Shown piece by piece: positions 3,596-42,604 of a DNA stretch of 43,053 nucleotides (positions are counted from its first letter, which is position 1; the number at the start of each line of letters is the position of its first letter). The position numbers and the translations under genes were made by a program. Origin of the DNA: Albidovulum sp. (GTDB lineage: Bacteria > Pseudomonadota > Alphaproteobacteria > Rhodobacterales > Rhodobacteraceae); NCBI GenBank assembly GCA_015487815.1, contig WFPA01000236.1, positions 1-43,053 on the forward strand, written 5' to 3'. The notes beneath the pieces are model-generated. The model saw only the letters and a program-made list of their open reading frames with translations, was not told the DNA's origin and did no database searches.

Positions 3596-4273
3596 TTACT
3601 GCATGAACTCAAGTGATAGTTGTCGAGCGGTTTGTTCTGACTGATAGCGCCAGATACTCGCATCGAATTCACGTCGAGAGATGGATAATAAGTCTGCCGC
3701 AAAGCTAAACACTTCGCGGAGATAATCGTAGTTGTCGTCTTCCAAGCCCGCGAGTTCGGCAAAGCCCCGGATGTGGCGATCTACAGCGATGCAATCCACC
3801 CCCACCAGGCAGGCCATGTAGTCAACGGTTTTTGGGCCGACACCTCTCACTCGCCGGATATCCATCCGAAAGCGCTTGTCGCGTAGCGCTCTGCTCAGCT
3901 CGGATGTACTGTCAATTTCCGCCTCGACCATGAAGCCGACCAGGTCGTCAAAGCGTGACACCTTCTCCCGATGCTCCCATTGCAGGAACTTTGGGCTTCC
4001 TTCTTGCTCGATCACCGGGACCAAGTTGCTCATGGTCGTGGCATGCGGGAAGGTTCTAAGAATGGTGGCAATGCGGGGCTTCACAACTTTCGCGTAGTTC
4101 AGCCCGGCTTGTAGGACTGAGTCGGCAAGTACCGCGCCCATGTGCTGATAGACCGGCCGGCAAGAGACGCGCTGTCCCAGAACACCGGTTCGAACAGCAT
4201 GGTCGGCAACGCGCCGGGCGGCTTGCAGAGCGTTTGAACTGTTCAGGTTTTCCGCCACTTCTATTCTTTCCAT
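3596..4273 (-). CDS. HhH-GPD DNA glycosylase/lyase-like protein (OGG/Nth type)
   Basis: The protein has 225 residues. A helix-hairpin-helix (GVGPKTVDYM, residues 144-153) is followed by VDRHI (residues 164-168). By alignment with OGG1 (K249/D268) and Nth (K120/D138), K148 is the lyase lysine and D165 the catalytic aspartate, so both key residues are present. I see no C-terminal 4Fe-4S cysteine cluster. The start is the ATG directly after the TAG of the QueC-like gene, with no spacer, so the two are translationally coupled. OGG-like proteins are ancillary parts of type IV CBASS together with QueC-like ones. Here the target could be modified guanine in invading DNA or a nucleotide-processing intermediate; that is inference. 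Confidence 0.75.
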   Translation of the reverse strand: MERIEVAENLNSSNALQAARRVADHAVRTGVLGQRVSCRPVYQHMGAVLADSVLQAGLNYAKVVKPRIATILRTFPHATTMSNLVPVIEQEGSPKFLQWEHREKVSRFDDLVGFMVEAEIDSTSELSRALRDKRFRMDIRRVRGVGPKTVDYMACLVGVDCIAVDRHIRGFAELAGLEDDNYDYLREVFSFAADLLSISRREFDASIWRYQSEQTARQLSLEFMQ

Positions 4274-4894
4274 CTACGCAATGCCAGCTTCCACCAAGGC
4301 ATTCAGCCTCTCTACGCAGTTGGGGCAGGCTCCGCAAGGAAAGGAACTTGACGCCTGACAAGAGAAGGTCCGGCCGATAGGGACCCCAAGGTCCAGCGCT
4401 TGTCGGACGACGTCGACCTTGGCTTTCTCGCGGAACGGCGCATGGAAGCGTACGGCTCCGACACCACGTGAGAGCTCTTCGAGGCCGTTCATGAACTCGG
4501 TGCTGCAGTCTATTTCCTTGGCATGGTTGCTGTTGATGAAGCCCGAATACACGTCGAGGATCCGAAGCGTCTGGGCGCGAGCTGCGGCCACAGCGAAGAA
4601 CAGCATCGTCCGGTACGGGAGGTACAGGTCATCATCTGAGACGGCTTCTTTCCAAAGGTCCGCTTCCACGATCATCCGTGATGGCGAGCCCTTGAAGACG
4701 TCCGAGATATTCAGCCGTTCTGGCGGCATCGCCTCCTGCGGGAGGACTTCCTGCACTTTCGCCCATTCTGTCTCAACACAGTGCTGGCCGTAATCGAAGA
4801 ATATTGGATGAACTTCTGTCCCTTTGTTGACCAGAAGATAGCAGACCGTTGTCGAATCGAGTCCGCCAGAGACCATGACGACAGCCTTCTTCAT
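4274..4894 (-). CDS. QueC-like (7-cyano-7-deazaguanine synthase family) enzyme
   Basis: The protein has 206 residues. The PP-loop SGGLDST (residues 9-15) activates a carboxylate by adenylation. The C-terminus has four cysteines in QueC spacing (C179, C187, C190, C193: TFSC...PCGACPNC), the zinc site. The middle YLPYRTMLFF matches the QueC substrate region, but the stretch GFINSNHAKEIDCSTEF is diverged. Housekeeping QueC turns 7-carboxy-7-deazaguanine into preQ0. There are no queC partners (queD, queE, queF) here, and its neighbours are a glycosylase, a kinase/deoxyribosyltransferase and a Gly-start small protein. A defence role like QatC or type IV CBASS Cap9, which use the chemistry on a protein N-terminus, is therefore more likely. 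It overlaps the gene before it by ATGA. Confidence 0.85.
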   Translation of the reverse strand: MKKAVVMVSGGLDSTTVCYLLVNKGTEVHPIFFDYGQHCVETEWAKVQEVLPQEAMPPERLNISDVFKGSPSRMIVEADLWKEAVSDDDLYLPYRTMLFFAVAAARAQTLRILDVYSGFINSNHAKEIDCSTEFMNGLEELSRGVGAVRFHAPFREKAKVDVVRQALDLGVPIGRTFSCQASSSFPCGACPNCVERLNALVEAGIA

Positions 4895-6222
4895 GAACGC
4901 GTCGCCCTTAGTCTCGAAATAACTTCGAAGAGGCCGTTTAGGCAGCTATCGAGCTTGTCCGAATAGACCGCGCTACCCGCCATCACCATCGTGTTGGTAT
5001 TCTCTTTGAGCGGATCGAAGGTGATCACGGGCTTCTTCAGGGCAAGAGCCAGGCCAATTTCAACAAGTGTGCCTGGATCGCGCTCCAGCGGCAGTGCGAA
5101 AACAAGATCACACTCCTCGAGAAGGCCCAAATCACCCAGATATGCGGCTCGCATTTCATGCATCGAGCTTTGCGGTGTTAGCTCTCCGTTCTCTTGTACC
5201 GGGCGGCGAACCCGAAAATTATGATAGGTGAGCGCCCGAAGTGCTTCTTCGAGGTGCGTGCGGTCGACGTAGGAAAAATCGGGAGCGGCGAAGTAGATCT
5301 GGAAGTCCGGCCGTGCATGCCAAGGCAGAAATGTTCCGCCCAAGCCGCGCATTTGCTCGACGGAGAGCGCAAGGCTGCGCTGGACATCTCTTTTGAAGTC
5401 GTCCGGGTAGGTCGTCTGGGAGTAGCACGTTGCAGCGCGCGCTGCCCTCCATCCGGCATCAAAGACGGCGCCATCCAGCATGGACACGAAAACCGCTGAA
5501 TACACGTCACCGACACCGACCGAGTTGACGGTTTCGCCGAGGAGCGCCGGAATCTCGTCGACCCTGTCACAGCGAAGATCGAACACACGGCTGCCGCCGC
5601 GGTTTTCCTTCAGAAGGATAGCTTGCGGCGACAGATCGCGCAGATCAGCCAGCAGGCTGGACATATCCTCCGACGCTTTCTCCAAGAACATTGGAGACGA
5701 TGTAGAAGTCACTACGGCGGCAATGTTTCCTTTGAACGATGAGAGCAATTGAAGGTTCGGGAGATCATAGGCGATATCGAAGCTTGCCTGAACATCCTCG
5801 GCAAGTAGGGATCTCAGAACCGTGAGATCGTACTTTCCAGGGAATATCAGACAGGTTTTGAAGGTCTTTAGTGCGTTAACTTCACCGCGGTATTCGACAG
5901 ATTTTTCGTCCCTCAGAATGTCCTGATACGCTTGATCGGCGAGTTCGGTCGGATCACCAATCGCCATGACGTTGGGTGCGCCCTTGACCTCTGCCAGCCA
6001 GATGAATTCGCTGCATCCCAAGCGTTCGAGGTAAGCTCGCGCTTGATCGACCAGATAGCCGGGGCATACAGCGGCCACGGAAAAGTTCGCGTCTATTGCC
6101 CACAGCCCGCGGGCCGCGTGAACGATGCCGCCGAGCCGTAGTTTACTTTCAGCACCTGCCTTCGGCAGAGTGAAATCTACGTAGACCTCGCCGACCAGAA
6201 GAAGGTCTTGTCTAGGGTTCAT
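4891..6222 (-). CDS. PfkB-family sugar/nucleoside kinase fused to nucleoside 2-deoxyribosyltransferase
   Basis: The protein has 443 residues and two domains. Residues 1 to about 295 are a PfkB/ribokinase fold, starting QDLLLVGEVYVDF with the catalytic-loop signature GVGDVYSAVF near residue 238 (Asp is the expected base). Residues about 305-440 are an NDT/MTH538-type deoxyribosyltransferase: FQIYFAAPDF at its start and DPGTLVEIGLAL near residue 382, whose Glu matches the nucleophile. Together they would swap a base on a (deoxy)nucleoside and phosphorylate it. Gene ends overlap by ATGA on both sides, so it is a core part of the four-gene unit. The codons are poorer in GC than the phage genes around it. 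Confidence 0.8.
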   Translation of the reverse strand: MNPRQDLLLVGEVYVDFTLPKAGAESKLRLGGIVHAARGLWAIDANFSVAAVCPGYLVDQARAYLERLGCSEFIWLAEVKGAPNVMAIGDPTELADQAYQDILRDEKSVEYRGEVNALKTFKTCLIFPGKYDLTVLRSLLAEDVQASFDIAYDLPNLQLLSSFKGNIAAVVTSTSSPMFLEKASEDMSSLLADLRDLSPQAILLKENRGGSRVFDLRCDRVDEIPALLGETVNSVGVGDVYSAVFVSMLDGAVFDAGWRAARAATCYSQTTYPDDFKRDVQRSLALSVEQMRGLGGTFLPWHARPDFQIYFAAPDFSYVDRTHLEEALRALTYHNFRVRRPVQENGELTPQSSMHEMRAAYLGDLGLLEECDLVFALPLERDPGTLVEIGLALALKKPVITFDPLKENTNTMVMAGSAVYSDKLDSCLNGLFEVISRLRATRS

Positions 6223-11887: not shown

Positions 11888-14800
11888 TCAGCCCATGTAA
11901 TTCGAGCGCACGGTCCGTCGCCGTCGCGGCGCCGGGTGAGCCGTCCGCCGCTGCACCGCGCCGGTCGCGGTTTCTGCAGCCCCGACCGCCACCTGCCGCT
12001 CCAGCTCCGCCCACTGCGCCTCGGACCACCGGTCCGCCCCGGCGATCCAGGCGGCGGCGCGGGCATAGACGCGGGCGTCGAGCGCCTCGTTCCTCTCACG
12101 CAGCTTCTGCCATTCGAGCCTGGCGAAGCCCCGCTTGTTCTTCACCGTCACCAGTTGCTCGGCCACCAGCTGCTTGAGCCACTCGCTGTCCACCCAGCCC
12201 GGCAGATGCACGGTGCCGGGCGGGTATGTGGCGCCGGCCGCAATCTCGTCCGCCGTGGGCCGTTCCTGCCTGAGAAAGCGGTAGGTCTCGGCCTTGAAGG
12301 TTGACACCGCCACCGTCCAGAGCCGCGCGCCCCGGCGCAGGCGCTTGCCCCCGACAGTTGCGTCCACGTAAGTCGGGCCGGTCACTGGCGCCGCCCTGTT
12401 GAACCCCTCCACACCCTTCACCGGCGCCACCTGCCCAAAGCCCACGGCCCGCGCCCAGCCATAGACGGCGCTGGTCTCGTAGCCCGTATCGACGGCGAGA
12501 CGGGCAATGGTCAGGTGTGCGCCGCTCGCATGGATCCATGTCCGACCAAGAAGCTCCGACAGCTTTGCCCAGCACGCCGGATCGGCCGGCCCGCCCTCGA
12601 TCACCAGATGGTCAATGAGCCAGCTTTCCAGTCCACGCCCCCAAGCCCAGATATCAACCTCGACCCGGTCCTTCTGCACATCCGCCCCGGCGGTCAGGAA
12701 CAGGCCCCGCTCCGGCACCGTGCCCACCGGCCAGTCTTCCTTCAGCCCGGCCAGGCGCTGCCAGTCGGGTGCATCGCCGGTCTCCACCCAGGTCTCGCCC
12801 AGCGAGGTATTCACGAAGGTCTTCATCGCCTCGTCGCCACCGGCGCGCGCCGAGAGAAACGCCTTCACCATCGCCTCCAACCGCACCCAGGGGGAATAGA
12901 TCTCGTTGAGTTGGAACCCGGCGATACCGGCAAAGGGCCGTCGCGCCCGCCATTCGCCCTTGCCGACGGCCGCCCATCTTGTCTGGTCGTCCCACTTCGC
13001 GGCGCAGTGGATGCATTCGTAGCGCGCCGTCTCCGGCCGATGCTCACCCTGCTCGGTCTTCTCCCATCTGACCTGCCCCCAGATCAGCACCTGGGATTCA
13101 CCACCGTCCGGACACGGCACCCAGTATTGCCGCTGGTCGCTTTCCTCAAACGCCGTTTCGATCCGGCTCGCGCCCTTGTTGGTCGGCGTCGAGACCAGCA
13201 CGATCTTGCGGTTCCAGAACGTCACCGTGCGCTTTTTCGCCAGGTTTACCGGATCGCCCTCGGCACCCGCGCTGAACGGATAGCGGTCGACCTCGTCGCA
13301 GAGCAGCAGCCGGATCGGCCGGCTCGCAAGCCCCGAAGGCGCGTTGGCGCCGACAATTGTCAGATGCCCGCCCGGAAAGCGCTTGTGCAGGATCTTGTTG
13401 TTGCCATCACGCGATTTGGGGTCGGCGATCTTGTCCCTCAGGCACGGCGTGTCCCGCGCCATCGGCGAGAAGCGGTCCTTCGACCAGGTCTCGGCATCGC
13501 GCTCGGTCGGCATCACCACCATGATCGGCGCCGGGTCCTGGTCGATGTGGTAGCCGACGGCGTTGTTCAGCATCTCCGTGTTGTGGGTCGGGATCATTGA
13601 TCGTCCGGCCAGATAAAGCCGGTTCGGGCTGTCGACCTGGATGCAGCGCACCGGAACGCTGGCGACCCTCTCGACTGCGACAATCCGGCGGCGCTCGGTC
13701 TCGGTGGTGCGCCGGCCTTCGCGCGAGACAAGCCGCGCCCGCTTGCGCGCAAGCCGGAACACGGGCGTGTCCTCGTAGATCATGAAGGAGAAGCGCGTTG
13801 CCGGCTTGCCGAGTTTGCGCACCCCGTCGATCACCACGCTTGGCTGCTTTGCAACGGAGGTGAACTTGATCCCCAGCGTCGCCAGCAACTCGCCAAAGCC
13901 CTCGGCCAGACGCGGGTATATCGTGATGAACTCGCAGCGCCCGCATTCGGCAACATAACCATCCGTGTCCATCAGCCCCTGCAGCAGCGCCAGGCGCTGG
14001 TCTTTCGATGCCCTGAGATAGGCCGGTGGAATATGCTTGCCGGTATCCGGTGTCTTGCGCGACTTGATGAGGCCCAGTTCCCGCAGCCTCAGGCTGAAGG
14101 GTTTTGCCTCTGGCAGAACCGGATCGACCGAAGTTCCGTGCTTCCACTGCATGCCGAACTGTCGCCCGCATTCGGCGCAGTTGCCTCCCTTGTACCGGCC
14201 GACAACGTTCATGTCGTGCCCGCGTTGACAGATATGATCCGGCCAGGGAAAGGTCGGCCTGAGCGTCAGGATGTGCGCAAACCGCTTGTCCTTCGCCTTG
14301 ACCTCCACCGCCATGCCGCAGGCGCGCAGGTGATCGGCGATTTCGAGATCATCCTCATGCGTCGTGATCTGCGAGCCGTAGCTGTGCCCGTCACCCAACC
14401 ACACGCCGAGCACATAGGGCGGGATCGGCAGGTTGGCCTCGGGCAGTTCCAGCGCCCCCGCCACCGGGATGGCATAGCGATTGCGTCGTTTCGCACCAAA
14501 GCAATGCGCTGTCTCGGCAATCTCCCTGGTTGTCAGAACCATCCGGTGGGTCGTCATCGAACAGGTCCCCCATGGCGCGGCTCGCGCGCACCTCCGTGTC
14601 GGACTCCACCGCCCAGAGGTGATCGGCATCGGCGATGATCGAACTGCCGTCCGAGAACCGGACCCGGTAGCAGGGCCGGTCCATCATCACCCCGGTCGCT
14701 GCCGTCACCCGGCAGGGCCGGCCGCGTTCGTCGAAGATCACATCGCCGACCCTGATCTCGCCCATGGTCGTCCAGCCCCCGGGCGTCGGGATGGGCGTGT

Positions 14801-15089
14801 CCAGCGCCAGCGCCTTGCCCACCTGCGAACTCGACATGATGACCACGGTCTCGGCAGCGCCGTCGGAAATCGCCTCCATGATCCCACGCTGATATTCGGC
14901 CCGCGAGGTTTTCCACTGACCGGGTTCGGCGCTCGCCTCGGAACTCAGCCGCCGGTTCGCGTCCGCCCAGTCACTGATCGTCAGCTCCGGCGGCGGGGTC
15001 AGTGCCTTCAGTGCCCGGCGCACCGTCCTCTGCAAGACCTTCGTCCCCGGCGGGGTCAGGATCGTCGTTGTCTCGCTCAAGGCGCACAT
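11888..15089 (-). CDS. Large terminase subunit (lambda gpA family), interrupted by an intein and an apparent frameshift
   Basis: The extein adds up to about 655 residues, normal for gpA-type TerL. The N-part (MCALSETTT...) has the family signature LTISDWADANRRLSSEASAEPGQW and the Walker A start SSSQVGK at 14814-14831; the C-part resumes as TEMLNNAVGYHIDQDPAPIMVVMPTERDAE and contains LLCDEVDRYP (Walker B). It ends RTVRSNYMG at 11888. Intein DNA (13580-14813) separates GK from T of Walker A. The two halves lie in frames offset by one base, with the switch inside the intein near 14550-14575, so an uninterrupted product is not encoded as read. The ATG at 15089 is chosen over an upstream TTG; it overlaps small terminase. 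The role is ATP-driven DNA packaging. Confidence 0.88.
13580..14813 (-). other. Class 3 (WCT-type) intein with LAGLIDADG homing endonuclease inside terminase
   Basis: The intein starts with Ala (ALALDTPIPTPGGWTTMGEI) rather than Cys and ends MIPTHN before Thr+1. Block B has the Trp (DADHLWAV), block F the Cys nucleophile (VRCIQVD) and block G the Thr (PTHN), the W-C-T set of class 3 inteins known from DnaB and terminase of actinophages. The endonuclease domain has two LAGLIDADG motifs (VLGVWLGDG, LLQGLMDTDG) and between them a C-x2-H...C-x2-C zinc-finger-like insert (ICQRGH...CAECG). The length of 1234 bases is 411 codons plus one base, which gives the frameshift. It is inserted between K and T of Walker A, a classic conserved-site choice. 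Confidence 0.88.
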
Positions 15090-15543
15090 CCGTTTCCGCA
15101 AGTTCCTCCAGCGCCTCGCGCACGGCGCCGCGCAACACGTCCCGCACCGCCGCCGGAGTTTCCGCGCCCTGCAGCTGCGCCGCCAGCCGGTCGGGCAATG
15201 CCAGAAGCCGCGTGCGCAACAGCGCCAGCACCGCGATCCAGGCCGCCTCTACGTCTTCGGCGGCGATCACCGCGCCGCGCTTTTCCTCGGCCTCCATCTC
15301 GGCGAGATCGGCGCGCGCCCGGATGAGGCGCGCCCGCTCGGCGGCATAATCTGGAGCGCCGGCCTGTGCCCGTGCCGCCTGTTCGCGCAGGTAACGCACA
15401 TAGCCGCGCACCGAGCCGATCAGGTCGTACTGCCCGCGCGTGGCTTTCGGGATCACGCCCTCGCGGCTCAGCTGCTGCACCCGCCGCTCGGAGAGGTCCA
15501 GAAGCTTCGCGATCACCCCGATGGGCTGGCTGGGCGATGACAC
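14971..15543 (-). CDS. Small terminase subunit (Nu1-like)
   Basis: The protein has 190 residues from a GTG at 15541-15543 with GGGGAG eight bases before it. A winged-helix DNA-binding N-terminus (IGVIAKLLDLSERRVQQLSREGVIPKATRGQYDLIGSVRGYVRYL) is followed by a long helix and an acidic C-terminus (NDDPDPAGDEGLAEDG). It recognises the packaging site and recruits TerL. It overlaps TerL by about 120 bases. It is the first gene of the late operon, so the late promoter and possibly the cos/pac site should lie just upstream, around 15544-15657. Confidence 0.85.
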   Translation of the reverse strand: MSSPSQPIGVIAKLLDLSERRVQQLSREGVIPKATRGQYDLIGSVRGYVRYLREQAARAQAGAPDYAAERARLIRARADLAEMEAEEKRGAVIAAEDVEAAWIAVLALLRTRLLALPDRLAAQLQGAETPAAVRDVLRGAVREALEELAETDVRLERDNDDPDPAGDEGLAEDGAPGTEGTDPAAGADDQ

Positions 15544-17737: not shown

Positions 17738-17954
17738 TTTCTTTGGCTCGAAAGGCCTCGAACAGCCGCCGCAGAGCGAAGGACCGGGCCAGGCTGACGA
17801 TGGTGAATATCCCGCCCATCTTGAGGTTCTGCCCCAGCGTCGTGTGCAGCCCGAACACGGGGAAGATCAGGATCTGCGTCACGACGGCGACGCCGTAGCC
17901 GACCGCGACATTGGCGATGGCTTCGACCAGCGACATGAACCGGGATTGCTTCAT
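17715..17954 (-). CDS. Small membrane protein, DUF7220-like
   Basis: The protein has 79 residues (MKQSRFMSLVEAIANVAVGYGVAVVTQILIFPVFGLHTTLGQNLKMGGIFTIVSLARSFALRRLFEAF as its main part). Two hydrophobic helices are joined by a short polar loop, with a basic C-terminus. Proteins with the 'SLxExxANVxxGYGxA' opening are common in rhodobacterial prophages (DUF7220). Its start overlaps the methylase stop by ATGA, making it the last gene of the early operon. Function is unknown. Confidence 0.7.
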   Translation of the reverse strand: MKQSRFMSLVEAIANVAVGYGVAVVTQILIFPVFGLHTTLGQNLKMGGIFTIVSLARSFALRRLFEAFRAKEITSRAQR

Positions 17955-19183
17955 GCGGCTTCCCGTCCGTCCTGAATCTCTGCGAAGCTGCGCCCGTCAC
18001 CATCCAGCACCGCCTGCCGCCCCGTGAACCGCTGCCAGCGCTCCACGATCACGTCGACGTATTTCGGATCAAGCTCCAGAAGCGCCGCCTTGCGCCCGGT
18101 GGTCTCGGCTGCGATCAGCGTCGTGCCGCTGCCGCCGAAGGGATCGAACACCAGATCGCCCACGCGGCTGGAATTGCGCAAGGCACGCTCGACCAAGGCC
18201 ACCGGCTTCATCGTCGGGTGCAGATCGTTCTTCGCCGGTCGGTCGATCAGCCATACGTCGCCCTGGTCACGCGCCCCGCACCAGCGGCGCTTGGCACCCT
18301 CGGGCCAGCCATAAAGGATTGGCTCGTATTGGCGCTGGTAATCCGAGCGCCCCAGCGTGAAGCGGTCCTTGGCCCAGATCACGAAGGTCGACCAGTGCCC
18401 GCCGGCCTCGGTGAAGGCCTTCTGCAGCGTGTGCAGCTCGCTCGAGGACATGCAGATATATACCGCGCCCGCGGTGTGCGCGTTGATCAGCACGCAGGCG
18501 TCATAGAGGAACTGGCCGAAATCATCGCCCAGGGCATCGTTCCTGATCCGGCGATTCTTGCCGGACTTCTCGGCGCCGACCCCACCGGCATAGTCCACGT
18601 TGTAGGGCGGATCGCAGAAGCAGATGTTGGCCTTGCTGTCCCCAAGCAGTCGTCCCACGTCGGTTGCCACCGTAGCGTCACCGCAGAGCAGCCGATGCGG
18701 GCCCAGCAGCCACAGATCGCCCGGGCGGGTGACAGGGTCCTCCGGTGCGTCGGGAACCTCGTCGGCATCCTCGGCCGCCGCTTCCTCGACCCCGGACAGA
18801 AGCGCGTTCAACTCGTCTTCGGTGAAGCCCGTGAGCCCGAGGTCGAATTCGGCCTCCAGCAGGTCGCCCAGTTCCAGCCCCAGCAGGTCCTCGTCCCATT
18901 CGGCGTTCTGGGCCGAGCGGTTGTCCATGATCCGGAACGCGCGCGCCTGGGCCTCGCTCAGCCCCTTGGCCACATGCACCGGCGCGGTCTCGAGCCCCAG
19001 TTGCCGCGCCGCTTCCAGCCGGGTGTGCCCGGCCAGCACCACCATGTTCTCGTCCACGACGATGGGCTGGCGCCAGCCGAACTCGGCGATCGAGGCGGCG
19101 ACGGCAGCCACGGCCTTGTCGTTGCGGCGTGGATTGCGGGCATAGGGAATGATCTGCCCGAGCAGCAGTTCGATCACTTCCAT
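17951..19183 (-). CDS. ParB-like nuclease domain fused to a DNA methyltransferase
   Basis: The protein has 410 residues. Residues 1-135 are a ParB N-terminal-like domain (LLLGQIIPYARNPRRNDKAV; AGHTRLEAARQLG at 51-63). Residues 150-395 are a class beta amino-methyltransferase: catalytic DPPYNVDY (191-198) precedes the AdoMet motif DPFGGSGTT (347-355), with LHPTMKPVALVERAL between. This type is common in phages and methylates adenine N6 or cytosine N4. There is no cognate restriction gene, so it is an orphan that probably protects phage DNA from host enzymes or marks a replication or packaging site. Confidence 0.9.
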   Translation of the reverse strand: MEVIELLLGQIIPYARNPRRNDKAVAAVAASIAEFGWRQPIVVDENMVVLAGHTRLEAARQLGLETAPVHVAKGLSEAQARAFRIMDNRSAQNAEWDEDLLGLELGDLLEAEFDLGLTGFTEDELNALLSGVEEAAAEDADEVPDAPEDPVTRPGDLWLLGPHRLLCGDATVATDVGRLLGDSKANICFCDPPYNVDYAGGVGAEKSGKNRRIRNDALGDDFGQFLYDACVLINAHTAGAVYICMSSSELHTLQKAFTEAGGHWSTFVIWAKDRFTLGRSDYQRQYEPILYGWPEGAKRRWCGARDQGDVWLIDRPAKNDLHPTMKPVALVERALRNSSRVGDLVFDPFGGSGTTLIAAETTGRKAALLELDPKYVDVIVERWQRFTGRQAVLDGDGRSFAEIQDGREAA

Positions 19184-36534: not shown

Positions 36535-39135
36535 ATGGGGCGTGTTTTCAAATTTCTACGAATAATTTTCTTCTACACGGTCTTTCTATTTCTCTCTACG
36601 ATTGTGGTGGCTACGACGCTTCAATCTTGGCCGGAAAGCACGAAAGTAATATTGACCTTCGTTACTCCAGCTTTTCTGGTTTGGTTGAATGAAAAATGGC
36701 GAGCGGGACGACCGAAAAAATCCGATAGAAATAAGGAAACCCAAGGCAGCCGCCAATCCCCAGCACCCTTGGAACCTCCTGTTTCTGGGAGTCCGCGAAA
36801 AAACAATCCCGTGCCCCCAAGTTCAGGATTTGGCACTACAGGCAAGGATCGAGTGGCCCCGGCAGCAGGAGCAGAATTGTACGCCCACTATCGTGAACCG
36901 GATAGCAACTCTAAACGGCACTACGGCCGTCCGAAACCGGATCAAGCTTCAATCCCCCGAGACACGAGAGAAGTCAGGCCGGAACGGACCGACATCAGCA
37001 CCATCCAGAAAAAAGGAAATGTCCCTGACACTGCCCGAAGACGCTATCACCAAGGCTGGGTGCCTCCAGGGGAGTCCGCATCGGTCCGCGGCCGAGATAT
37101 CGGCGGCATGGTCTATGTGGGCACTCCACCGCTATTGAACACGTATGGCGTCCGCGAAAAATGCCGCGCCTACATCGACCCGTCATTGCCAGTGGCCAGA
37201 TCGGGCGATGATCTTGACGGGGATGGTATGCCCTACTGGCCTGGTTATTCTGACATCTCACCGCGATGTCGTGCCACCTATCTGGATTGGCTGGCGGGCG
37301 GGAGGGTGGATACCGCCTACAATCCAGGATACATGTTTCTTTATTTTTACGGGCTGGAACGGCGTTTTTTCGTTGGGGATCCGCCCGAGGAGGAAAAGCA
37401 GAAAATCAGAGAAGAGGTTCAGCGACTTGCCCAACTCTACGCTGAGAATCGTTCGGTCCAACGTTATCTGGGCGAATTCCTCGAGATAGCAAAGGTCGCG
37501 ACGATAGGAATTGATGACTTCGCGCCGGTTTACCAGTTTTCGGGCTGGGAATTACCCCTTTCCGTGAAAGTTGCCATCGGCACACGCGTGAGCAAGGGGG
37601 AAAGGCTTGATGCTGACTGGGTTCTGAGCTGGTTCCTCTGTCATCCGGAACGTAGCTTGCGGACCCCGGCAACAAGGTGTCGGGACGAATTTCTCGCGCT
37701 GTTCAGGTTGCGATTCAAGCAGCGGTTTCCTGACGGATTGAAGGTCATCAGACCCCGCAAGACCTTGAAGGCTTCCTATCGGGCAGCGTCGAGCGAATTC
37801 GAGACAACGATCAACCCGTCGATCGATGGCAAGCCGGTTCCGGACATTTCCGGGCTGCGTAAACCTGTCGAAATCGCGCAGGAGATTGCGGATGAGGTCA
37901 TGGACGAACTGGACAAGTTCAGCCGCTTCCTCGGCCGTAGTCCCGATGGTCGTGGAAGTGTCGAAGGACACGCTCTTTTGCCCGTTGAACTCTGGGCCCT
38001 GTTCCCTTCGGAAGAGCTGGATGCCGTGAAGACTTGGGCTGCCGGAATCGTGTCCGATGGCGGGCTTGTATCAGCGGCAGACGTGATTGAACGTCTTGAG
38101 GGTGAGTGCCCCGAGAAAATCGGAAAGAGACAGTTGACCAGTGCCGCGGATGCTCTCGCCCGGATCGGCTTCGGCCTCGCTCCGGATCCGCGATTTGCGA
38201 TGCGCTCACCGAAACGCGATGAGCCCGTCGTTCTCTTCGATCTCGGCGAGACGGTGGAAAGACTCGAACAGGTTTCACCCAGATATCGCACCGCGCTCAT
38301 GGAGCTGGCGCTTGGCGCGTTCGTCGCACATGCGGACGGCCGGATCACAGATTCCGAGCGGCAAAGCCTCGAACAGCAAGTCGCAATGACTGAAGGTCTC
38401 ACAGAGCAGGAGTCGCGTCGGCTTCGGGCCAACCTGAGCTGGTTCCTCGCGGTGCCGCCAGACATGGGTCTCTTACGCCGCAAGCTCAAGGATATTGGCG
38501 AAGACAGCCGCACCGCCCTGCGTGCCGCCCTGGTCGCGGCGGCTCATGCCGACGGGATACTCCAGTCGGAGGAAGTCGCAAGCATCGAGAAAGTCTACAA
38601 GGCACTTGGTTTCAACCCCGCTCTCGCCTATTCTGACCTTCATGCCAGTGCCGTCGCGGACGAGCCCAGGACAGTTCGCGCTGCACTGCCTGGCGCCCCC
38701 GGTGAGGCGATTCCGGACGAACCTCTCCCCTCTGGTCCGACGCTCGATGCATCGCGGATCGCATCCATCCAGTCCGATACCGCACGCGTGTCTTCGGTTC
38801 TGGGGCAGATTTTCGGGGCCGAAGAGGATGACGAATTCCCGGCGGATGGCAGGGACCGTCGGCGGCTTGCCGGACTGGACGACAAGCACGCGGTGTTGGT
38901 CTGCGAACTTGTGGAGCAGGAGCACTGGAGCGAGGACGCGTTTGAAAGCCTTTGCTCGCAACACGCGCTCCTTGCTGCCGGGGCGCTGGAGGCGATCAAC
39001 GAATGGGCGTACGAAAACCACGACGAGGCGCTGCTGGAGGAATACGATGGATATGATGTCAACCTGGAAATCGCCGAAGCGATAAAGCAGCAACGCACCA
39101 AGGAGGGCGCAAATGTCCAGACTGAAACCACGTGA
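36535..39135 (+). CDS. sngA: Shango TerB-domain protein with N-terminal membrane segments
   Basis: The protein has 866 residues. Residues 5-27 (FKFLRIIFFYTVFLFLSTIV) and 36-50 are hydrophobic, so it should be membrane-anchored with the bulk in the cytoplasm. Residues 60-190 are low-complexity. TerB_N starts near 231 (MPYWPGYSDISPRCRATYLDW...FLYFYGLERRFF). TerB is at about 585-695 (ELALGAFVAHADGRITDSERQ; AALVAAAHADGILQSEEVA, two acidic D-x-D/E motifs likely binding metal). TerB_C ends the protein (EQEHWSEDAFESLCSQHALLAAGALEAINEWA). Shango is a three-gene anti-phage system of TerB, ATPase and helicase proteins; this is its first gene. The first 200 bases are very AT-rich compared with the rest. 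Confidence 0.88.
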   Translation: MGRVFKFLRIIFFYTVFLFLSTIVVATTLQSWPESTKVILTFVTPAFLVWLNEKWRAGRPKKSDRNKETQGSRQSPAPLEPPVSGSPRKNNPVPPSSGFGTTGKDRVAPAAGAELYAHYREPDSNSKRHYGRPKPDQASIPRDTREVRPERTDISTIQKKGNVPDTARRRYHQGWVPPGESASVRGRDIGGMVYVGTPPLLNTYGVREKCRAYIDPSLPVARSGDDLDGDGMPYWPGYSDISPRCRATYLDWLAGGRVDTAYNPGYMFLYFYGLERRFFVGDPPEEEKQKIREEVQRLAQLYAENRSVQRYLGEFLEIAKVATIGIDDFAPVYQFSGWELPLSVKVAIGTRVSKGERLDADWVLSWFLCHPERSLRTPATRCRDEFLALFRLRFKQRFPDGLKVIRPRKTLKASYRAASSEFETTINPSIDGKPVPDISGLRKPVEIAQEIADEVMDELDKFSRFLGRSPDGRGSVEGHALLPVELWALFPSEELDAVKTWAAGIVSDGGLVSAADVIERLEGECPEKIGKRQLTSAADALARIGFGLAPDPRFAMRSPKRDEPVVLFDLGETVERLEQVSPRYRTALMELALGAFVAHADGRITDSERQSLEQQVAMTEGLTEQESRRLRANLSWFLAVPPDMGLLRRKLKDIGEDSRTALRAALVAAAHADGILQSEEVASIEKVYKALGFNPALAYSDLHASAVADEPRTVRAALPGAPGEAIPDEPLPSGPTLDASRIASIQSDTARVSSVLGQIFGAEEDDEFPADGRDRRRLAGLDDKHAVLVCELVEQEHWSEDAFESLCSQHALLAAGALEAINEWAYENHDEALLEEYDGYDVNLEIAEAIKQQRTKEGANVQTETT

Positions 39136-40420
39136 ACGCGATGCCATCGTTCAGGCGCTCCGCGCAGGGGTCGTGCCAAAGCTGGGCCTGCGTCATATCC
39201 AAGTGGGGCGCGTGCGGGAGATCGAAGAACTGGTCAAGGACATGGACCGGATCGCCGACGGCGGCGCGGCAATACGTTTCGTCATAGGTGAGTATGGATC
39301 CGGCAAAACGTTCTTCATGAACCTTATCCGGCTCGTCGCGCTCGAAAAAGGCCTCGTTGTCATGTTCGCGGATCTCGCGCCGGACCGGCGCCTGCACGCG
39401 ACAGGTGGGCAGGCGCGTGGTCTCTACGCCGAGATGGCGCGGAACCTCTCGACCCGGACGAAACCCGATGGCGGTGCCCTTGCAAGTGTAGTCGAACGGT
39501 TCGTTTCGCAGGCACATCGTGATGCTGAAACCCGCGACATGCCAACCGGCAGCGTGATCCGTGAACGGCTTGGCCACTTCGAGGAACTGACGGGAGGATT
39601 CGAGTTTGCAGAGGTGGTCCGCCGTTACTGGGAAGGGCACGAAACCGGCGATGAGGATCTGAAATCGGCAGCGCTGCGCTGGCTCCGGGGTGAGTTCGCG
39701 ACACGGACAGACGCACGCAAGGCCCTTGGCGTGCGTACGATCATAGACGATGCTAGCGTCTACGACCATCTCAAGCTCATGTCGGCCTTCGTCCGGGAGG
39801 CCGGATACAAAGGACTTCTCGTCGGCCTCGACGAAATGGTGAATATTTACAAGCTCGCCTCATCTCAAGCGAGAAAGGCCAACTACGAACAGATCCTGCG
39901 CATTCTCAACGACGTGCTTCAGGGCAGCGCCGAAAATCTGGGTTTCCTGATGGGTGGCACGCCCGAGTTCCTCATGAACACGCGCCGCGGTCTTTACAGC
40001 TACGAGGCGCTTCAGTCCCGGCTTGCCGAAAACACATTCGCACGCGATGGGCTGGTGGACCTGTCCGGCCCTGTGATCCGCCTGACGAACCTGACGCCCG
40101 AGGATCTGTTCGTTCTGCTTTCAAACGTCCGCAGGGTCATGCAGGGCGAGGACGGCGCCTTTCCAGACGAGGCACTCGAGGCCTTCATGGCTCATTGCTC
40201 AAACCGGATCGGCGAAGCATATTTCCGTACCCCCCGAAACACGATCACCGCCTTTGTGAACCTGTTGTCCGTCCTGGAACAGAATCCAGGTGTGGAATGG
40301 AGCGATCTTGTCGAGAAGGTCGACATCGCCAGGGATCCCGGCGAGGATCTTGCCGACGTGGACGAGACGGTTGGTGCTGAGCCCTCGGGCGGCGATGATC
40401 TCATCAGCTTCAAGCTCTGA
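39113..40420 (+). CDS. sngB: Shango ATPase (BrxD/DUF2791-like)
   Basis: The protein has 435 residues. Walker A is GEYGSGKT (59-66), followed by FFMNLIRLVALEKGLVVMFADL; Walker B-like GLLVGLDEMVNIYKL (about 238-252), then NYEQILRILNDVLQGSAENLGFLMGGTPEFL. This is the DUF2791 family, which includes BREX BrxD. It overlaps sngA by 23 bases and has AAGGAGG before its ATG inside the upstream gene. With the helicase next to it, it likely senses or acts on phage DNA. Confidence 0.9.
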   Translation: MSRLKPRERDAIVQALRAGVVPKLGLRHIQVGRVREIEELVKDMDRIADGGAAIRFVIGEYGSGKTFFMNLIRLVALEKGLVVMFADLAPDRRLHATGGQARGLYAEMARNLSTRTKPDGGALASVVERFVSQAHRDAETRDMPTGSVIRERLGHFEELTGGFEFAEVVRRYWEGHETGDEDLKSAALRWLRGEFATRTDARKALGVRTIIDDASVYDHLKLMSAFVREAGYKGLLVGLDEMVNIYKLASSQARKANYEQILRILNDVLQGSAENLGFLMGGTPEFLMNTRRGLYSYEALQSRLAENTFARDGLVDLSGPVIRLTNLTPEDLFVLLSNVRRVMQGEDGAFPDEALEAFMAHCSNRIGEAYFRTPRNTITAFVNLLSVLEQNPGVEWSDLVEKVDIARDPGEDLADVDETVGAEPSGGDDLISFKL

Positions 40421-40429
40421 AGGCTTTCG

Positions 40430-42604
40430 GTGAGCGGAGCCTTCGACAAGCTTGTCCGCCCGGTTCAGAAATGGATCCGGAGACAGGGATGGGGCGAACT
40501 GCGCGACATCCAGGCGCGCGCCATACGGTCAATCTGCGACAGCGACACAGACCTGATCATTGCCGCATCTACGGCGGGGGGAAAAACCGAAGCCGCGTTC
40601 CTTCCGCTGATCTCGCAAGTCCTGGATGCGCCCGCGGACATGGCGGGCTTCGATCTACTTTACATAGGTCCACTCAAGGCGCTGATCACCGATCAGGCCG
40701 GGCGGCTCGATGACATTTGCCGCGAGGCGGAGCTTCCCGTGGTCCCCTGGCACGGCGATGTATCGCAGTCGATCAAGTCCCGCGCATTGAAGAAGCCAAG
40801 CGGTATTCTTCTTATTACGCCCGAGTCGCTTGAGGCCCTCTTCATCCGGCGGGGCCTTGAAATACCGCGTCTCTTCGGCACCACTCGCGCCGTGGTGATC
40901 GACGAACTTCACAGCGTTCTCGATAGCGAGCGCGGCATCCAGATGCGCTCCCTGCTCAACCGTCTGGAACTTGCGGTCAAACGACCGATCCGGCGCGTTG
41001 GGCTCTCGGCAACACTCGGGGACATGGAACTCGCCCGAACCTATTTGCGCCCCGACGACCCAACAAATGTCGCACTGATCGAGGCTGAAGGCGGCGAGGC
41101 CGAACTTCGACTCCAACTGCGGGGTTATATTTCGGGTGAGGAAGACGAAACCGCCCCCTCTGCCACCGACGCGATTTCCGCCCACTTGTTCCAGAATTTG
41201 CGCGGAAAGGACAATCTGGTGTTCGCGGGTGCGCGCCAGTCCGTCGAGATATATGCCGACAGGCTGCGCGAACTCTGTGAACGCGAACATCTTCCACAGG
41301 AGTTTTACCCCCATCATGCAAGCCTGTCGCGTGAACACAGGGATTTCGTCGAACGCCGTCTGAAGGACCCCCAGAAACCCACAACCGCAATTTGTACGTC
41401 GACGCTGGAGTTGGGCATCGACATCGGTGACGTTACCTGTGTCGCACAAATCGGGGCACCGTTCACTGTCGCGGCTCTCAGGCAGCGCCTCGGACGCTCA
41501 GGTCGTCGAGAAGGACAACCCGCGATCCTGAGACAATATGCGGTGGAAGCAAGGTTGACCCCAGAGAGCAGCTTTGTGGACAGGCTGCGTCTTGGCCTTG
41601 TACGGTCCATCGCGATGATTGACCTCCTCCTCGAAGGCTGGTGCGAACCACCCAGGCGTGAGGCGCTACATCTGTCGACGTTGGTGCATCAGGTCCTTTC
41701 GGTCATAGCCGAGCGGGGTGGGGCATCGGCCAGCCGTCTCTATCACGATCTGTGCCGCACAGGGCCGTTTCGAATGGTGACAACCGCAACCTTCGCTGCG
41801 GTCCTGCGCGCGCTTGGTGATGCGGATCCAGGCTTGATAGAGCAAACCGAGGGCGGGCTACTCTTGCTGGGACCCGGAGGCGAACGACTGGTTGAGCACT
41901 ACAGTTTCTACGCCGTTTTCAAGACACCCGAGGAATTTCGGCTGGTCGCCGAAGGTCGGGATCTCGGCACACTTCCGGTCGATAACGTCATGTCACCGGG
42001 GATGATGCTGATATTCTCGGGCCGCCGCTGGATCGTGCAGGAAATCCATGACCGGGAGAAGGTCATCATGGTGACCCCTGCGAAGGCGGGCACGCCGCCC
42101 GTTTTCGGCGGTGATCCAGGGGACATCCATGACAAGGTCGTTGAAAGGATGTTCGCGATCCTGGAAGGCGATAATCAGCCAGCATACATGAACCTCACAG
42201 CAAGAGAGATGCTCGAGGAAGCCCGCTTCAACTACGAGCAACTGGGGTTTGCAGAAAGCCGTATAATCTCTAGGGATAAAGGGTCTGCAATCCTAGCAAC
42301 CCGCGCCGGGACCGTGAAGACGGCAACACTCGCACTGGCACTTCGCAGCCAAGGATATCAAGTGGAACGCCACGATGGTTTCCTGGAAGTCAAGGCCGAT
42401 CAGGACGCCACGCCCCTGCTGGAAACCCTCAGGGCTTTAAGCGACGCGAAGCAGGTGGATCTGTTCGCAGACGGCACGAACCTGCAGTTCGAAAAGTTCC
42501 ACCCCTATCTACCCCGCGAATTGCTCGCCCAAGATGCCTTGTCGACAAGGCTCGATGCTGAAGCTCTGCCAGACCTTTGCAGCGAGCTTGTCAAACGGAA
42601 ATGA
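40430..42604 (+). CDS. sngC: Shango DEAD/H-box helicase (Lhr/BrxHI-like)
   Basis: The protein has 724 residues from a GTG at 40430, nine bases after the ATPase stop. Motifs: I ASTAGGKTE (46-54), II DELH (158-161), III SATLG (193-197), and VI QRLGRSGRREG (about 350), with TSTLELGIDIGDV (motif V region) before it. The C-terminal 300 residues carry a winged helix and an Lhr-like extension. It should translocate on nucleic acid and with SngB form the effector part of the system. Confidence 0.9.
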   Translation: MSGAFDKLVRPVQKWIRRQGWGELRDIQARAIRSICDSDTDLIIAASTAGGKTEAAFLPLISQVLDAPADMAGFDLLYIGPLKALITDQAGRLDDICREAELPVVPWHGDVSQSIKSRALKKPSGILLITPESLEALFIRRGLEIPRLFGTTRAVVIDELHSVLDSERGIQMRSLLNRLELAVKRPIRRVGLSATLGDMELARTYLRPDDPTNVALIEAEGGEAELRLQLRGYISGEEDETAPSATDAISAHLFQNLRGKDNLVFAGARQSVEIYADRLRELCEREHLPQEFYPHHASLSREHRDFVERRLKDPQKPTTAICTSTLELGIDIGDVTCVAQIGAPFTVAALRQRLGRSGRREGQPAILRQYAVEARLTPESSFVDRLRLGLVRSIAMIDLLLEGWCEPPRREALHLSTLVHQVLSVIAERGGASASRLYHDLCRTGPFRMVTTATFAAVLRALGDADPGLIEQTEGGLLLLGPGGERLVEHYSFYAVFKTPEEFRLVAEGRDLGTLPVDNVMSPGMMLIFSGRRWIVQEIHDREKVIMVTPAKAGTPPVFGGDPGDIHDKVVERMFAILEGDNQPAYMNLTAREMLEEARFNYEQLGFAESRIISRDKGSAILATRAGTVKTATLALALRSQGYQVERHDGFLEVKADQDATPLLETLRALSDAKQVDLFADGTNLQFEKFHPYLPRELLAQDALSTRLDAEALPDLCSELVKRK

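Follow-up and report, generated by a model that had tools for sequence, protein, structure and literature searches.

A class 3 intein broken across two reading frames in the Walker A motif of a phage large terminase: probably a natural split intein with overlapping genes

The 43,053-nucleotide (nt) contig WFPA01000236.1 of Albidovulum sp. (assembly GCA_015487815.1; this whole stretch is called the window below) carries a prophage gene for a large terminase (TerL) that is interrupted by an intein, and the reading frame of this intein is broken once. Is the break a lesion, or is it the state in which the intein works? An earlier note on this DNA called for a splicing assay after restoring the frame, and so implied damage; that implication fails, given that the +1 frame change, a start codon opening the second frame and, in 24 of 28 distinct sequences, a stop codon closing the first are conserved among relatives. 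As these three features are conserved, the natural state of the element is most likely a split intein. Comparison of the sequences leads us to regard it as probable that a mobile class 3 intein, naturally split, sits here in the Walker A motif of a phage TerL and is encoded by two overlapping genes whose products trans-splice; that two chains exist, and that they splice, we infer from these comparisons. The N- and C-terminal halves of the intein are termed IntN and IntC, and the principal features are as follows.

13580 to 14813, minus strand: whole intein, from Ala1 (codon 14813-14811) to the last Asn (codon 13582-13580), with a single +1 frame change near 14557, as read from the sequence and its relatives.
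14391 to 15101, minus strand: N-gene, comprising the TerL N-extein and IntN (from 14813), an open frame with a tool-called TTG start, a stop at 14393-14391 and the N-part of Pfam GpA_ATPase.
11888 to 14557, minus strand: C-gene, comprising IntC (326 aa, 13580-14557) and the TerL C-extein, in the +1 frame from the ATG at 14557-14555, with GpA_ATPase, GpA_nuclease and LAGLIDADG_3; the list of open reading frames gives this frame as a longer one, from 14629.

The insertion point lies between the Lys and the Thr of Walker A (SSSQVGK / TE), the N-extein ending in ...MSSSQVGK and the C-extein beginning with TEMLNN. Pfam GpA_ATPase (PF05876) is matched on both sides of the intein (8.6e-8 for the N-part, 1.5e-74 for the C-part) and GpA_nuclease (PF20454) in the C-extein (1.4e-92), such that both domains of a GpA-type TerL are present, while LAGLIDADG_3 is matched inside the intein (2.5e-5). 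The residues on which class and activity turn are listed next.

14613 to 14615, minus strand: Trp67, the W of the WCT triplet (block B), invariant in 16 alignment rows.
13643 to 13645, minus strand: block F Cys, first nucleophile of class 3 splicing, invariant in 16 rows.
13580 to 13588, minus strand: block G Thr-His-Asn, invariant in 16 rows.
13577 to 13579, minus strand: Thr+1, second nucleophile and Walker A Thr; Thr or Ser occupies this place in empty sites.
14387 to 14419, minus strand: LAGLIDADG motif 1 (PYVLGVWLGDG), from the alignment.
14168 to 14230, minus strand: Cys/His cluster, C110-H114...C127-C130 of the C-half, invariant in seven rows, the three Cys in 20.
13955 to 13993, minus strand: LAGLIDADG motif 2 (LALLQGLMDTDGY), from Pfam and the alignment.

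The 16-row alignment comprises three members of the split clade and 13 cis relatives. Position 1 is Ala in the window and in every row, with no Cys or Ser nucleophile there; the WCT triplet (Trp at block B:12, Cys at block F:4, Thr at block G:5) corresponds to W67, C305 and T324, the last two in C-half numbering, and is invariant, as is the block G run Thr324-His325-Asn326. A profile of this alignment matches the solved class 3 inteins 6rix (Mycobacterium chimaera; 8.5e-52) and 6bs8 (M. smegmatis DnaB; 2e-49), and its endonuclease part matches PI-SceI (1.7e-15). The Cys/His cluster sits between the two LAGLIDADG motifs, of which the acidic residues D56 and D197/D199 of the C-half are invariant in 20 rows. 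NCBIfam models gave no intein call above cut-off (best 19.8 bits, rSAM_Rv_intein, against a cut-off of 700), and among 72,556 plasmid records the intein DNA was matched only partially, in six, with a best coverage of 17%. On its sequence motifs the assignment to class 3 stands. The earlier note is upheld here: it had placed a class 3 intein in the Walker A motif of a lambda-type TerL, with an Ala1 and WCT set, at coordinates that prove exact, and had described a Cys/His insert between the LAGLIDADG motifs.

In the window, block B and everything before it lie in one frame, and VLTTREI and everything after it in the +1 frame. A first viral scan returned seven full close relatives, each of 1324 nt for 441 residues, that is, 3 x 441 plus one base. 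Across the viral and genome scans the same +1 change is present in all 38 loci holding both halves (window included), with IntN and IntC in separate open reading frames at each, and since the break is common to all of them it is not a local defect. These loci come from isolates and metagenomes, with hosts including Thalassobius vesicularis, Thalassovita autumnalis, Seohaeicola saemankumensis and Paradonghicola geojensis, and they reduce to 28 distinct DNAs of 68-99.7% pairwise identity, in which both halves are free of stops and the stretch between Ala1 and Asn is free of indels. Left out of these counts were L017, L009-L011 and L039 (N-half cut or off the contig), L003-L008 (same contigs as L013, L019 and L034-L037), L123 and L124 (apparent repeats of L046 and L052) and L207 (the N-half of L051); L052, with its C-half cut, is among the 38 loci and not among the 28. 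One scan for intein relatives retained 80 of 138, and fractions drawn from it refer to those shown.

More distant relatives (34-46% identity at search) open in one frame from the N-end of the intein to the C-part in 71 of 72 cases, four of which are terminase inteins at the same site; the remaining one, L012, for which the listed match begins before the intein, also reads in one frame. This last is a related intein, 35% identical, at positions 4001-5368 of a 151-kb viral contig, following ...TDSGK of the flanking protein. A different, in-frame intein-like sequence (LALDTPVPTPFGW...; L125) was found in G110, a genome of the same bacterial family, and unsplit and split relatives therefore both occur in one family. 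Separately, two contigs of Thalassovita autumnalis CECT 5118 (L045 and L050) each carry a copy of the split intein; the copies differ and presumably belong to two prophages of one genome.

Whether the broken frame is read as two genes can be judged from four features around the break.

14566 to 14571, minus strand: Shine-Dalgarno-like GGGGGA, 8 nt before the ATG, from its duplex energy with the 16S tail.
14555 to 14557, minus strand: C-gene start codon ATG; ATG in 27 and TTG in one of the 28 distinct sequences.
14514 to 14516, minus strand: position of the N-gene stop, conserved as TGA in 24 of 28; CGA in the window.
14535 to 14569, minus strand: possible hairpin over the C-gene start, predicted and weakly supported.

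Counted from the first base of the Ala1 codon, the +1 frame opens after 256 nt, and the single TTG belongs to L048; L052, outside the 28, also opens its second frame with TTG. Eight nt before this codon, the purine-rich block has the best mean energy with the anti-Shine-Dalgarno sequence among the 26 columns in which 20 or more of the 28 sequences have an NTG. Upstream of the start, 20 of the 28 have a stop in the C-frame at a distance of 15-18 nt, with no other ATG between the two; in L034 and L035 the ATG is immediately preceded by a TTG. A TGA closes the first frame 41 nt beyond the C-gene start in 24 of 28, giving an IntN of 99 aa. A TGA at this place requires the Ala codon GCT in the overlapping C-frame, and GCT is used at that Ala in 24 of 28 sequences, as against 81 of 667 at other Ala codons, these being related sequences and not independent counts. 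Across 21 representatives (the 28 at a 95% cut), pairwise differences at codon positions 1, 2 and 3 are 0.10, 0.08 and 0.42 for IntN codons 1-70, and 0.13, 0.09 and 0.45 for IntC after codon 16; each half, judged by these values, is under purifying selection in its own frame. In the overlap, third-position variation is the lowest of all 12-codon windows (0.27 vs 0.45), and the three lowest of 315 such windows start at codons 1-3, as expected if both frames are in use.

Several observations weigh against two separately initiated genes. All of the sequences are related, such that the counts above are not independent events, and some 10% of the other NTG codons are preceded by a block that matches or betters the median one at the C-start. 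The stop at +41 is not essential, because it is replaced by CGA in the window, L002, L042 and L043, where IntN extends to 140 or 152 aa (140 in the window). The predicted hairpin, which would fit translational coupling, could also hinder initiation at the codon it covers. In it, 96.5% of cells are paired and the consensus energy ranks 7th-8th of 117 windows, covariation being weak (47 of 500 shuffles reach the paired percentage and 28 of 500 the double changes); as the rank is moderate and the covariation weak, we place no weight on it. Nor does folding of the start region stand out as clearly weak, with 30% of windows weaker still. Further, a survey of 2020 that counted 1701 class 3 inteins had none that was split (PMC7891396); a frame-split intein would probably escape such a survey, as the count, according to the same text, used complete intein domains.

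The strongest competing explanation is that ribosomes undergo programmed frameshifting, +1 or -2, within the overlap, which would yield one fused precursor from which a class 3 intein is spliced in cis. Constraint on both frames of the overlap would arise equally in this way, and the conserved frame change and the unusual conservation of the overlap speak for it. Purine-rich blocks upstream are a feature of known frameshift sites, and one is present upstream of the overlap. Moreover, a possible -2 re-pairing site is present at N-frame codon 98 in all 28 sequences. A shift at this codon, however, would skip the C-frame VLTT, a stretch whose second Thr, at least, is also found in cis inteins, and for a +1 shift no conserved re-pairing codon was found in the 28 sequences, the best being codon 82 (9 of 28) followed by codon 85 (4 of 28). 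Nor does frameshifting explain why a start codon (ATG or TTG) is kept at the head of the second frame, or the preference for a stop in the first, and in the four sequences from which the stop is gone the frame change persists. We consider frameshifting unlikely on this balance.

Less likely again is that two polypeptides are made and never spliced, whether because the intein is decaying or because the two pieces of TerL work as a non-covalent pair. Drift of the N-gene stop in the window and its three nearest relatives (L002, L042, L043) is in keeping with decay, but A1, W67 and the Cys, Thr, His and Asn of the splicing blocks are invariant and purifying selection is evident in both halves. As the break places the Walker A Lys and Thr on different chains, an ATPase that functions without ligation seems improbable. 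Finally, when seen alone, a +1 break in a high-GC contig looks like a mistake in sequencing or a prophage pseudogene with a frameshift. This reading has a negligible chance of being correct and is ruled out by the relatives that share the break at 38 of 38 loci, in isolates and metagenomes and down to 68% nt identity, with no other indel or stop in the 28 complete inteins.

The preferred reading, a split intein, is also informed by the position of the break. In a structure model of the cis intein L053, which occupies the same site (predicted local distance difference test score, pLDDT, 81.7), the Trp67 strand and the one after it (LTLTT) are joined by a loop, residues 72-79, that is modeled in part with low confidence. 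Together, alignment and model place the break in this hairpin loop, ahead of strand 105-108 and of the endonuclease, and not at the usual endonuclease insertion site. Structure matches of the model are headed by PI-SceI, with the solved class 3 inteins at ranks 17-23. As the break is upstream of the endonuclease site, IntC would carry the endonuclease and, together with Thr+1 of the C-extein, both nucleophiles. When the C-half is modeled alone the endonuclease is confident, and the first 30 and last 46 residues have block pLDDT values of 44-69; low values at these ends are to be expected with IntN missing, though they prove nothing. Charge pairing of split halves is known from DnaE inteins. 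In the 24 sequences that keep the +41 stop, IntN has a net charge of -9 to -15; in the four without it the charge is -5 to -9, and the C-terminal 45 residues of IntC total +2 to +6. A break at the usual site is frequent and not defining, atypically split inteins being on record (PMC11766414).

We therefore envisage, as a proposal, the following route to active TerL. The first gene would give the TerL N-extein (about 100 aa) joined to an IntN with an acidic tail, and the second, initiated at an ATG or TTG of its own that follows the Shine-Dalgarno-like block and opens the +1 frame, would give IntC, with its embedded LAGLIDADG endonuclease, joined to the rest of TerL. IntN and IntC would meet via charge and strand pairing, whereupon the block F Cys of IntC may attack the Lys-Ala bond; Thr+1 would then take over the N-extein, the Asn would cyclize, and ligation would produce a TerL reading ...SQVGK-TE..., in which Walker A is rebuilt. 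The endonuclease, in turn, may copy both genes together into empty alleles. It is conceivable, though we hold it only tentatively and think it more doubtful than the split itself, that the division is a control device, in which overlap and start hairpin couple the halves and Walker A forms only once two chains have met, so that the packaging motor is held back until late in infection. With the endonuclease inside IntC, the split intein could then home as a single unit, unlike those known split inteins that have a separate endonuclease gene, such as AceL NrdHF (PMC7891396).

How the split arrangement arose, and how far it has travelled, can be addressed in part by phylogeny. In a tree that covered 28 split inteins and 15 cis ones, all split sequences fall on one side of a branch (support 97/98), with one change. 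The nearest to them are L040, L041, L053 and L054, cis inteins at the same place in GpA terminases; finer placement among these is unsure because the branches are long. The split clade lies apart from 11 actinobacterial inteins, of which the four that were checked are all in DnaB. Among the best 80 of at least 599 confirmed relatives of the C-extein (76-93% identity), the TerL site is empty in 65 and occupied by a split intein in 12, all on contigs already in the count of 38; one is undecided (N-half off the contig), two are cut and none holds a cis intein. Such patchy presence is consistent with homing. Among genomes of the family, six of 394 match the intein, the split arrangement being seen in the window, G005 and G246 (the last with its C-half cut); among those of the order, four of 390 match, of which two (the window and G383) are not new, and the window and G598 are split. 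In a phage collection, 520 of 50,697 records match the intein, irrespective of class, 402 of them over at least 80% of its length, and these include phages of Vibrio, Pseudomonas, Klebsiella and Rhodobacter; with so many matching records, a related intein in a phage is an ordinary finding. The earlier note had read the locus as evidence of wide phage-to-phage spread and had suggested a phylogeny with actinobacterial phage inteins: the many phage matches agree with the spread, which is however no novelty, as splicing of a Burkholderia class 3 intein was already shown in 2016 (PMC5222942), and the phylogeny does place the split clade, albeit with four terminase inteins and away from the actinobacterial ones.

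Among known systems, the closest in kind is AceL NrdHF from an Ace Lake metagenome, described as the first natural split class 3 intein (Hoffmann et al., PMC7891396). By that account it shares with the TerL intein a natural split, the class 3 mechanism, Ala1, a phage-like context and an IntN of similar length (98 aa), but it is broken at the usual endonuclease site, its halves lie apart with a GIY-YIG gene between them, its triplet is MCT and its 48-aa IntC lacks an endonuclease (PMC7891396). The TerL intein has overlapping genes, an earlier break, a WCT triplet and a LAGLIDADG domain retained in IntC. The mycobacterial DnaB inteins (6rix/6riy, M. chimaera DnaB1; 6bs8, M. smegmatis DnaBi1) are the closest solved class 3 relatives by profile and have the same blocks and WCT, but they are cis mini-inteins in DnaB; DnaBi1 has been split artificially between residues 94 and 95, at the endonuclease site (PMC10559147). 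The cis TerL inteins L040, L041, L053 and L054 share the GpA_ATPase insertion point, the WCT motifs and a LAGLIDADG domain with Cys/His insert, and differ in having one reading frame; they are 43-49% identical to the intein of the window. Conversely, AceL-TerL, GOS-TerL and Cat-TerL are natural split inteins of terminase large subunits, but of class 1, with an IntN of only 25-37 aa (PMC11766414). Our literature search, from which subscription journals were mostly absent, listed no second natural split class 3 intein besides AceL NrdHF among its matches, and a 2025 review, in the part of its text drawn on here, names no further one (PMC11766414).

If the interpretation is correct, these sequences constitute a second, conserved family of natural split class 3 inteins, present in isolates of Thalassobius, Thalassovita, Seohaeicola and Paradonghicola, and different from AceL NrdHF in its break point and in the retention of the endonuclease by IntC. 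As many as 28 natural pairs would become candidate trans-splicing tools with both nucleophiles on one half. More broadly, the findings suggest that frame breaks in inteins, possibly annotated as frameshifts or pseudogenes, can be a working state.

A small-terminase gene lies directly upstream of TerL, and portal and head-protease genes follow downstream; this and two other neighboring features of the contig are listed here.

14971 to 15543, minus strand: terminase small subunit, just upstream (phrog_57, 1e-35).
17951 to 19183, minus strand: protein matching ParB-like and DNA methyltransferase families (phrog_498, 4.3e-154; phrog_620, 1.7e-52).
36535 to 42604, plus strand, at the end of the phage-bearing contig: three large genes matching PADLOC SngA (1.3e-97), SngB (7.2e-176) and SngC (4.9e-278), which probably form a Shango-type defense system.
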